A DNA stretch of 64,000 nt. Source: Halobacteriovorax marinus. GTDB lineage: Bacteria; Bdellovibrionota; Bacteriovoracia; Bacteriovoracales; Bacteriovoracaceae. Every line of letters starts with the position of its first letter. Position 1 is the first letter of the stretch. Below the pieces are notes generated by a model. It ran no database searches. It saw only the letters and a program-made list of their open reading frames with translations, and was not told where the DNA came from. This document shows positions 31,690 to 36,941 of this stretch, piece after piece. The stretch lies in NCBI GenBank assembly GCA_002163155.1, contig MAAO01000005.1, positions 103,874 to 167,873 on the forward strand, given 5' to 3'. The position numbers and the translations under genes were made by a program.

Positions 31690-31724
31690 ATCTAACCTTT
31701 AAGGTTATTATAGATGAGTGAAAG

Positions 31725-34700
31725 CTATTCGTCACCAAAGAGTCGCTCATAACCAGATTTTTGATAACGTCTGGTGATGATTTCAAAGATATTCTTATCC
31801 TTACCACCAACAATATCAGCGTTTTTATAATTATATCTCTTATCACTCTTGTAATTTAAATCCGTTGGACTGCCATCAAAACCTCTAACTACAGTTCCAC
31901 CACCTCCAAACATTGATCCACCTGAAGATTTCTTCTTAGACTTAATGCCACCCATTCCAGTACCACCAGACATAAGTAGAGAACTTGGATTCTTTCTTAA
32001 ACGATTAGGGTTCTTTAGGGCCATGTTTGATTTACCTGTGAGCTGTATTCCTTGTCCTTTTAAAAGACCATTTTTCATCATGCCACCAATCAATTTCTTA
32101 TTGGCACCGATAGTATTTAAATAAGCGTTCATAACTTTTCCATTTATTTTTCCAGGATTTGGAATTGAATTTTTATTGGGTAATTTATTATAGAGCAGAT
32201 CTCTTACTCTCTCGGCCTTATTAATAGCTGAATTAACCTTACTTAAATCAAGTTCACCAGAAGCTAATAAACCACTGTTAATTCCATTTAAACTCTTTTC
32301 CAGATCACCAATGGATAATCCTTGAGCTACCCCTGCTTGAAAGTTCGAGGATGAGAATCCTGCTTTCTTACAGGCATTCTGGCCATTTTGATCTTTAAAC
32401 TTTCTACATTTACAACTTAAATCAAAGCGATTATTTGCAGCGACACACCCTTTTCTATTACGAGAAGGATTGGCCCTCGTTTTGTCGGACGACTCTGCAA
32501 ATAAGTTCACATTTCCTTTGGCCCAAAGGTCCTGGCATTTCTTAGAGTTAGTACGACTTGAATTTTGTCCGCCTTCATCGTTGTAACAGTAACAAGTGAG
32601 ATCATTAATATCATCTCTACCTTTTGGACAATACTTAGCTTGATCAGAAGTAAACTTAGACTGTATTTCCTCTAATTTCTTAACATTATTTTCTGAAGCG
32701 ACTTTTTGTTTCTTAGCTGCTGCCCATAGCTTTTTATTAATGAAAGCATTTACTCCCGAGAAAAAAGCTACTGAGTAGGAATTAGATAAGAACTTACCTA
32801 ACTTCTCTTTTATGGGATATCCTTGAGTATCAATCCAATTAATGAGCATAGTAATTCCATAAGAAAGCAGAGAGCTCTTTATCATTCCTAGACCTAGTGT
32901 TTTAAGTTTATCCCCTCCAGATTCTACCGCGTGAGTAGATGGGAAAATAAAATTAAAATAGAGATTTGCAGCATTCTTTATAAAGTGCTTAAAGTTATAA
33001 GCACTATCTGTTGATTCAATTGAGTTGATGTGACCTTCTAAAAAGTCTCTTCTATTTTCAAACTTTTTCTTTAAAGATTCATCTGCTGTATTCTCTAATA
33101 TCTTATTCCACTTATTCTTGGCCTCAATTAAAAGAGACTTTCTTTGACTATTACTAATACTTGGTGAAAGTGCTGCATTTTCAAGTTTATAGGCACTATT
33201 TAATTCCTCAGAATAGTTAAAACTATCTTTTCCTCGATCATTTATTTTTTCACTATTATCTTGATGATACTGCATATCTGCCCAACGGGTTTCTGTCTCT
33301 GCAACTTTAGTTAGACCATCTGTAAAATAGCTCTTGTCTAAATAACTAGCTCCTTGAACATCTACATATTGAGCAAGATCTGCTTTCGTACTTATAAGTT
33401 TTGTGTCCATGACTCCAATATCAGTTTTTAATCCTGAAATATCTGTGTTGAGATCAGTTATCTTAGTCTCAAACCCTTTGATATTAGTATTTATAGTATC
33501 AACACTACCAATGGCCTTAATCTTAGTATTGAGATCCCCTATATTAGTTTTCACTCCCTCAACATTTTTAGTGAGTTTAGCCATGTCCGGAAGAGCTTCT
33601 ACTTGTGCATCAATTTTAGCGATTCCGGCCTTGAGATCACTTACTTCAGTTTTTACGTTTACAATTTTCTCATCTAAGGCATTTACTTGTGTTGTGATTT
33701 CTGTACTTTGTTGATCGAAAGCAGTATTTGCAATTTCTTTCTGACCAGCAATTTCGGTCATATCATTTTGAAACTCTGTCGCCTTAGCTTGTAATGCTTG
33801 TTCTCCTGCAACAACCTTATTATCAATACTATCTATCTCATTATTAAATCGAGATTCAATATCGTTAACCATCACTGAATCGTTTGTAGGGTTCGCCTGC
33901 TTAAAGGAATCTCTTTGGCTGGTCATTTGTTCAGAAGTAGCTTTATTCTGAGTCACAGTTTGATTTTCTTTTATATATTCTTCAGTATAAGTTTTTCCCT
34001 TTTTTGCGACTTCCTGATCAAAAGAATCATTAGATGCAGATTTTTTGGCAGTAATATCTTTTTGAGCAGTTTCTAATTTTTGTTTTTCGCCACTAAGCTC
34101 TTTTATTTTTTTAGAGGCGACCACTTCTTGATTCGTTTTAGTATCATGCTCAGTACTAAGAGCATCATTCTTTTTAGTAGTCTCCGCAATTTCTTTATTT
34201 AATTCCGTTTCTTTAGTTTCGAGGCCTTTCTTTTGTTCTTCAAAAGCTGCTTTATCTTTTAGTGATTTTTCGGAAGCAGCTTTGTCACCTTGAGCTTCTG
34301 CTAATTCTTTCTTTTTTCCATCAGACTTTTCTGTTAACTCTTTTTTTTCTAATTCTTCAGCTTCTTTTTGTTTTTGAAGATCTTCTTTACTAGCAACGGG
34401 AGAAACTCTTCCTAGAGAAGTTTGACAACCAGCTGCGGCCATACTTCCGCCTGAAATCCCCTCAGTCAGAGCAGCTGCTGTTGAAGCGGTGTAACCTAAA
34501 GTCACGACCATGTGTAAATTAGATTTATACTTAGCTATTGAGGCTATCGCCTTTTGTTCTTTTCTTAGAAATTCGAAGACTTCGTTTTGAGCCGCGTACT
34601 CATCATCACTTAGAATATTTTTTTCAAACTCTTCTCTAAGCTTTAAAGCTTTATCATCAATTTTGAAATATGCGTAAAGAGAACCCACTGTAGAAGCTAT

Positions 34701-35060
34701 TCCCGTATACTTGGCGATTTTAACAGACCAGCACTTACTCATGGCCCCACCTACGATGGCCCCATTAATAATATTAGCGATTTCAAAAGTTTTTAAAAGA
34801 ATTGGGTTAAGGCCAGGATCAAAAGTAGTATCTTCTAGCCCTTCACTCTTTGCCAATCCTTCCATACATTGTTTCTTCTTGGCCTCATCTTTCATGGCCG
34901 AGCAATTTTTAAAAGAAAGTCTGTCACTCTTGGAAGTTTGACTTGTCATACAACGACATAAGTTCCCATTCCAACTCTTTGAAGGATTTTTTGAACAGGC
35001 TTCCATTTGCGGACCAAAGTCCGCTTGATCACAGCCAGCAATTGAAGTGAAAGCTTGCAT
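31725..35060 (-). CDS. Large secreted/envelope coiled-coil protein (real start probably at 35093, ATC)
   Basis: Long ORF; Cys-rich N- and C-terminal regions flank a long coiled coil and possible TM segments. Upstream in-frame codons IKFVFITLLFF complete a signal peptide. Confidence 0.8.
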   Translation of the reverse strand: MQAFTSIAGCDQADFGPQMEACSKNPSKSWNGNLCRCMTSQTSKSDRLSFKNCSAMKDEAKKKQCMEGLAKSEGLEDTTFDPGLNPILLKTFEIANIINGAIVGGAMSKCWSVKIAKYTGIASTVGSLYAYFKIDDKALKLREEFEKNILSDDEYAAQNEVFEFLRKEQKAIASIAKYKSNLHMVVTLGYTASTAAALTEGISGGSMAAAGCQTSLGRVSPVASKEDLQKQKEAEELEKKELTEKSDGKKKELAEAQGDKAASEKSLKDKAAFEEQKKGLETKETELNKEIAETTKKNDALSTEHDTKTNQEVVASKKIKELSGEKQKLETAQKDITAKKSASNDSFDQEVAKKGKTYTEEYIKENQTVTQNKATSEQMTSQRDSFKQANPTNDSVMVNDIESRFNNEIDSIDNKVVAGEQALQAKATEFQNDMTEIAGQKEIANTAFDQQSTEITTQVNALDEKIVNVKTEVSDLKAGIAKIDAQVEALPDMAKLTKNVEGVKTNIGDLNTKIKAIGSVDTINTNIKGFETKITDLNTDISGLKTDIGVMDTKLISTKADLAQYVDVQGASYLDKSYFTDGLTKVAETETRWADMQYHQDNSEKINDRGKDSFNYSEELNSAYKLENAALSPSISNSQRKSLLIEAKNKWNKILENTADESLKKKFENRRDFLEGHINSIESTDSAYNFKHFIKNAANLYFNFIFPSTHAVESGGDKLKTLGLGMIKSSLLSYGITMLINWIDTQGYPIKEKLGKFLSNSYSVAFFSGVNAFINKKLWAAAKKQKVASENNVKKLEEIQSKFTSDQAKYCPKGRDDINDLTCYCYNDEGGQNSSRTNSKKCQDLWAKGNVNLFAESSDKTRANPSRNRKGCVAANNRFDLSCKCRKFKDQNGQNACKKAGFSSSNFQAGVAQGLSIGDLEKSLNGINSGLLASGELDLSKVNSAINKAERVRDLLYNKLPNKNSIPNPGKINGKVMNAYLNTIGANKKLIGGMMKNGLLKGQGIQLTGKSNMALKNPNRLRKNPSSLLMSGGTGMGGIKSKKKSSGGSMFGGGGTVVRGFDGSPTDLNYKSDKRYNYKNADIVGGKDKNIFEIITRRYQKSGYERLFGDE

Positions 35061-35122
35061 GAAAAATAGAAGAGTTATGAATACAAACTTGATGAGATAT
35101 CCTTTATTTAAATGATTTCAAT

Positions 35123-35128
35123 ATTATA
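35123..35128 (-). promoter_or_regulatory. Candidate -10 TATAAT for the 1,111-aa protein gene
   Basis: TATAAT on the - strand, 30 nt upstream of the putative ATC start; weak -35 TTAATT at 17-nt spacing. Confidence 0.45.
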
Positions 35129-35244
35129 CTAGCTAGCTTGGTTTTAATTAAGCGGAAAATATTTATGTACAAGATTTTAATGACTTATGAAGGTAAAATA
35201 TCTAAAACTTCATAATTTACTGACTAATTCTAGAGGCAGAACTG

Positions 35245-36939
35245 ATGGCTAAGTATCTAATTTTACTAATGTTTATAAATATCAACTCCTACGCAAACAG
35301 TGGCCTTGGTTGGAATGGAAATTGCTATCAAATACAAAACTTCAAAGGTGAAAAGTTATCAAGACCTACAAATTTCAAAATCTATGGCATGGAGATATTT
35401 TATAACTTTGCCTATGCTCTTACATTAAAAGAAGCAAAATCTCATGCCAGAGTTAACCTTCTCAATAAAGTTAAAAGAAAGTGTCAGAAAGTACCAAGTG
35501 ATTTAAAATTTATTATTCAATGTCCTGTAGATTCAGATCATATAAAGAAATTTCATGTTATAGCAGTGACTAAGAGATGTTCAGAAAAATTTAAAAATAC
35601 TAAACTTGAAACTGAAAGAAAACGTGGTCCTAAGAAAACCAATCCCAAGGCCATAAAAAACCAGTGTCGTAGTGGTGAGACAATCGCATGTAATAAAGGT
35701 CTTCTCCATGCCTTCTATAAAGACAAGCCTTCACTACAAAGAAAGTATGCTTCCGCTCTCTGTAAACAAAATGATAAATTAGGTTGTTTTTTAAAGGTTC
35801 TTTTAAGTAAGAATAAATACTCTTCAATCACTTCTCTAGTGACTCTATGTAAGAAGAAAAACTCTAGGGCCTGTAAAAAGTTAGGAGACAATGAACTTAA
35901 GGCCAGAAATTTAAAAAGTGCAATATCCTATTATGAAAAGGCATGTCATCTAAAGAATACCAAGTCCTGTGGGCTGCAGGGTTATCTTTTAAAACTAACC
36001 GGACAGAAAGTCTTAGGAGATAGACTCTTAAAGAAATCATGTCAAAAAGGAAATACTATTTCATGCGCCGATTTAGCACCAAAAAAGAGAATAAAGTTCT
36101 GCCAAGAAGGACTAGAAAAAGCATGTCAAGATGAATTTATGGAGACTCAAAATGTTAAGATGCTTTCAAAGTCTTGTCAGCTAAATAACGCAAATTCCTG
36201 TTACAAAATGGCACAGATAAACTTAAAGAATAAAGACTACTCCTTATCCCATTTGAGATTTACAAAATCTTGCTTACTAGGAAACTTAAGAGCCTGTAAA
36301 AATATTGTTTTAATTGCTCCGAATGCAAGTGGTGGGGAGATAGAGATTAACACCAACCTTTGTAAGAATGGTGATCAAAAATCTTGCACCTATCTTGCAA
36401 TCGCAAATTTTAAACAAAAGAAATACAAACTAGCATTAGGTGATCTCACAGGTCTGTGTAAGAAAGGAGATCAACTTTCCTGTTATTATAAAGCTCTCTC
36501 TCTATCTAAGTTAAATAAACTTCCAGAGGCCATTATAGAATTAGGAAAGCTTTGTACCAAGGAAAGTCCACTTGTCTGTCTAACCCTTTCAAAATTCCAA
36601 AATGGAAAAGACAGAATCAAAACATTGAGAAAAGGATGTAAGTTTAAAGAACATCAGAGTTGTTTTAATTTAGCGACCAAGTCAAAAAAGAACTCACAGG
36701 CGCAAAGAAAGTATTATTCAGAATCATGTCTATATGCAAACGCGCAGGGTTGTGAAAAAGCAGGTAAAATTCTTTTAAAATTAAAAGACAATAAAACAGC
36801 CAAGGCCTATTTTAAGAAAGGTTGTAGATTAGAATTTGCAAATAGCTGTAATTCACTAGCTTCCCTCTCAAACAAGAAGGAAAAAAACATCCTGCTAAAA
36901 AAGGCCTGTAAACTTGGGCACAAGAAATCGTGCCCATAA
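35245..36939 (+). CDS. Secreted Sel1-like/cysteine-rich repeat protein
   Basis: Recurring 'C(K/L)xGxxxSC...A' units (e.g. LCKKGDQLSCYYKALSL, ACKLGHKKSC), as in disulfide-linked Sel1-like repeats of the Hcp type. Confidence 0.8.
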   Translation: MAKYLILLMFININSYANSGLGWNGNCYQIQNFKGEKLSRPTNFKIYGMEIFYNFAYALTLKEAKSHARVNLLNKVKRKCQKVPSDLKFIIQCPVDSDHIKKFHVIAVTKRCSEKFKNTKLETERKRGPKKTNPKAIKNQCRSGETIACNKGLLHAFYKDKPSLQRKYASALCKQNDKLGCFLKVLLSKNKYSSITSLVTLCKKKNSRACKKLGDNELKARNLKSAISYYEKACHLKNTKSCGLQGYLLKLTGQKVLGDRLLKKSCQKGNTISCADLAPKKRIKFCQEGLEKACQDEFMETQNVKMLSKSCQLNNANSCYKMAQINLKNKDYSLSHLRFTKSCLLGNLRACKNIVLIAPNASGGEIEINTNLCKNGDQKSCTYLAIANFKQKKYKLALGDLTGLCKKGDQLSCYYKALSLSKLNKLPEAIIELGKLCTKESPLVCLTLSKFQNGKDRIKTLRKGCKFKEHQSCFNLATKSKKNSQAQRKYYSESCLYANAQGCEKAGKILLKLKDNKTAKAYFKKGCRLEFANSCNSLASLSNKKEKNILLKKACKLGHKKSCP

Positions 36940-36941
36940 GC

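Follow-up and report, generated by a model that had tools for sequence, protein, structure and literature searches.

The question raised by this locus, from a Bacteriovoracaceae-type bacterium, is where a long open reading frame on the minus strand begins, its first canonical codon being an internal ATG (35058..35060, minus strand). Counted from this ATG, the frame (31725-35060) encodes 1,111 aa. The window (the whole stretch of DNA that was analyzed) comprises 64,000 nucleotides. The original prediction placed the start 11 codons farther upstream, at an ATC codon (35091..35093, minus strand) with a correctly spaced AAAGGA and no in-frame ATG, GTG or TTG ahead of it, and the sequence was found to be as claimed. 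On the minus strand, a TATAAT hexamer (35128-35123) is followed by ATTGAAATCATTTAAAT, the putative Shine–Dalgarno (SD) sequence AAAGGA (35100..35105), in which AAGGA forms a 5-nt match, a 6-nt spacer (TATCTC) and the ATC (35093-35091). The frame upstream reads TGA AAT CAT TTA AAT AAA GGA TAT CTC ATC, with a gap of eight codons between TGA and ATC, and downstream the codons AAG TTT GTA TTC ATA ACT CTT CTA TTT TTC lead to the ATG (35060). In-frame reading from the TGA to this ATG gave no ATG, GTG or TTG. The only one-base neighbors of ATG in this interval are ATC, AAG and ATA, and at SD distance only the ATC and the AAG next to it were found. A near-cognate codon thus stands at SD distance, and no canonical one is available at the proposed start. 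The pattern AAAGGA-N6-ATCAAR, which was composed after the site had been seen, occurs once in the 64-kb window versus 0.04 copies expected from shuffles. A start in another frame combined with a frameshift was rejected, as the TTG codons there, inspected by eye, open short frames that end in a stop.

The upstream signals were less informative. The TATAAT, which had been noted as a possible -10 box (35123..35128, minus strand), is indeed present; as promoter evidence it is weak, and by itself it counts for nothing, because the window holds 52 copies versus 58 expected by chance. No paired -35/-10 match to a sigma-70 promoter was found for the gene, no RNA structure at the start exceeded the shuffles, and Rfam gave no match in the window.

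When the frame is read from the ATC, its N-terminus has the appearance of a signal peptide, (M)KFVFITLLFFMQAFTSIAG, followed directly by Cys (35034..35093, minus strand). Hydrophobicity over 8 residues was 3.0 from the ATC versus 1.44 from the internal ATG, in agreement with the claim that the first ATG lies inside the hydrophobic stretch; neither a signal peptide nor an SD is associated with this ATG. A control survey was needed, because hydrophobic stretches often arise when T-rich DNA is translated. The control sample, 464 kb of the same genome made up of the 64-kb window and a further 400 kb in stretches, held 399 non-overlapping ORFs, and signal peptides were scored by a simple home-made rule, not by SignalP. 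A canonical start served the signal peptide in 107 of these ORFs, and only 1 of the 108 signal-peptide ORFs, the present gene, needed a near-cognate codon. No other near-cognate start with an SD of at least 6 nt was found in the 464-kb sample. The signal peptide thus stands above chance (1 versus 107 in the control), and the homologues agree with it. The end of the peptide (SIAG-C, or IAG-C) fits a lipobox when compared by eye with the known consensus, and together with Lys2 and the Cys at position 21 this makes the product a possible lipoprotein, which may be lipid-anchored. The SIAG-CDQ junction falls within 35025-35045. The paralogue in the same genome has AWA-NE at the cleavage end and no Cys there, and the two copies may use different signal peptidases.

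The full coding sequence proposed from the ATC (31725..35093, minus strand) would give a protein of 1,122 aa, a putative secreted family member whose middle part is a coiled coil and whose C-terminal domain is rich in Cys. Pfam and NCBIfam gave no family, hmmscan returned weak coiled-coil matches only, and a sequence search of the PDB gave no relative. Relatives were found in 51 of the 98 genomes searched, all from the same taxonomic family, the Bacteriovoracaceae; the Cys-rich N- and C-terminal parts are kept among them and the middle is variable. The present protein combines an N-terminal signal peptide with the conserved Cys-rich C-terminal block, and no stop interrupts its 1,122 codons, which retain the conserved cysteines of the family.

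Of 50 homologous frames whose N-terminus was read, 49 had a canonical start (45 ATG, 3 GTG, 1 TTG) that led into a hydrophobic signal peptide. These ATG, GTG and TTG starts are those of paralogues and distant homologues. The residue encoded by the ATC aligned with Met1 of five close homologues, namely the paralogue in the same genome and four congeneric proteins, with Lys2 invariant, and the codon fell in the ATG column of their DNA. The surrounding DNA is also similar, reading AAGGATTTATCT-ATGAAA in two congeners (G003 and G004) versus AAAGGATATCTC-ATCAAG here. In three of the four congeneric homologues a Met also occurs at roughly the position of the internal ATG, inside the signal peptide. 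Homology thus places the N-terminus at the ATC. One other family member (L126; G042:C15:15000-21000) has its signal peptide some 25-30 codons past the first ATG, with a CTG preceded by AAGGGG at 6 nt just before the n-region; either a long n-region or a CTG start would account for this.

Neither the 98 genomes nor the genome contigs searched yielded an orthologue of the long form. A search of the contigs with the family alignment matched only UBA3083, a MAG of the Bacteriovoracaceae, and a DNA pattern search of viral contigs gave no match. The gene lies in a segment (31690..36941) that it shares with a divergent TPR-repeat gene (35245-36939, plus strand) and that is missing at this place in two congeners. 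In both of these (G001 and G002), the metallo-beta-lactamase/NUDIX gene adjoins the 2-oxoacid:ferredoxin oxidoreductase gene, and here 5.2 kb lie between the two. By this comparison the present gene is a lineage-specific extra copy; a shorter paralogue with an ATG is also present in the genome. Elsewhere in the genome, a tRNA-Lys and tRNA-Glu pair occurs twice, about 4 kb apart (G000:C15:240498-244750), a possible local duplication.

The organism can, in principle, use a near-cognate start. Its own infC starts with ATT, preceded by GGAGGTGA. Among the same-family relatives whose infC was read, nearly all start this gene with ATT, ATC or ATA by the same reading; extended SDs of the GGAGGT type precede infC in its own genome and in almost all of these relatives. 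In some members of the phylum that are less closely related, infC could start at an ATG. The SD of the ATC gene is an ordinary AAGGA of 5 nt, most chosen starts in the genome having 4-5 nt, and the infC-type combination of a near-cognate start with an extended SD is not found here (AAGGA versus GGAGGTGA). Three tRNAs with a CAU anticodon were found, one of them the ordinary initiator. A variant initiator tRNA able to read AUC was considered and was absent from the tRNAs read, in which the initiator anticodon is CAU. These also included no tRNA with a GAU anticodon, probably because it is located in a collapsed rRNA operon. In the proposed mechanism, AAAGGA would position the 30S subunit at the ATC (35093-35091), and the ordinary initiator tRNA (CAU) would pair with AUC with a mismatch at the third base. 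With this pairing fMet would therefore be inserted, the protein would start with fMet-Lys-Phe-Val, and its output would be a small fraction of the ATG level.

Taken together, the homologues, the position of the SD and the unfitness of the internal ATG uphold the part of the original prediction that concerns the N-terminus: the coding sequence very probably begins at the position of the ATC and encodes a signal peptide, which would be a correction to the annotation. From assumed error rates, the ATC is also likely to be the true base. That the base is correct and that AUC initiates, and does so weakly, we infer. We give a probability of about 0.6 to the full reading, in which the gene is translated from the ATC with AUC as a functional initiation codon and the product is secreted and possibly lipid-anchored. 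The strengths attached to these three statements are judgements and were not computed.

A single base separates ATC from ATG, and because no orthologue was found and the SD is an ordinary one of 5 nt, some probability remains that the base was misread or has mutated recently. If the assembly were wrong at this base, the real codon would be ATG and the gene an ordinary one; one substitution would give back the usual codon of the family, with which 49 of the 50 homologues, starting canonically, would agree, as would an SD of the kind that is ordinary with canonical starts. Against an error, only about 0.1 start-codon errors are expected per 4.5-Mb genome (at an assumed rate of ~1e-5 per base or lower), and no other signal-peptide gene in the 464 kb is affected, so we regard it as unlikely. 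Somewhat less probable still is that the ATC is real, recent and damaging, a lineage-specific paralogue having just lost its start and now decaying into a pseudogene that yields little product. Such decay would suit an extra copy that is absent at the same place in two congeners, with the short ATG paralogue persisting in the genome and no extended SD offsetting the ATC. However, 1,122 codons remain open with the conserved cysteines present, and because AUU and AUA starts keep ~10-30% of AUG expression in Staphylococcus aureus, the loss of the start would be only partial.

A start at the internal ATG (35060), which would yield a cytoplasmic protein, is highly improbable: a gene caller would choose this codon, the first canonical one, but it has no SD, it halves the hydrophobic stretch, and the homologues are secreted and start at least 11 codons earlier. 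Only marginally better, and still improbable, is the idea that selection has kept the AUC as an IF3-sensitive brake on a secreted protein found in this lineage alone, so that a near-cognate start would control translation of a cell-surface gene that has no extended SD; IF3-dependent control of this gene is speculation.

Translation from the ATC, our preferred reading, bears mainly on annotation. Near-cognate starts are hard to spot because gene callers ignore them, and a caller that chose the internal ATG would lose the signal peptide and wrongly make the protein cytoplasmic. The present value of the locus lies chiefly in this correction and in a candidate near-cognate start. If genuine, it would add to the short list a near-cognate start outside infC in Bdellovibrio-like bacteria; the putative ATC start is an exception of an ordinary kind.

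Among known systems, infC of Escherichia coli, which is subject to IF3 autoregulation, and pcnB of the same species have AUU starts. The present gene resembles them in having a near-cognate AUN codon behind an SD, with weak initiation expected, but differs in that the codon is ATC, the SD is not extended, and the predicted product is secreted and is not a translation or RNA factor. Control of the E. coli infC by its AUU start is cited in PMC1780047. In Myxococcus xanthus, formerly classified within the same broad group, dsg (infC) starts with AUC; the codon is common to both, but dsg encodes IF3 and the ATC gene a putative secreted protein. In S. aureus, cvfC1 (AUU) and ccpN and citZ (both AUA) have near-cognate starts with ~10-30% of AUG activity in reporters, and these starts carry extended SDs (PMC13009471). 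In cvfC1 and ccpN, the codon is kept across species and accompanied by extended SDs (PMC13009471), whereas the ATC gene has a plain 5-nt SD and its ATC is known from one genome; what it would share with cvfC1, ccpN and citZ is a near-cognate start in a gene other than infC.
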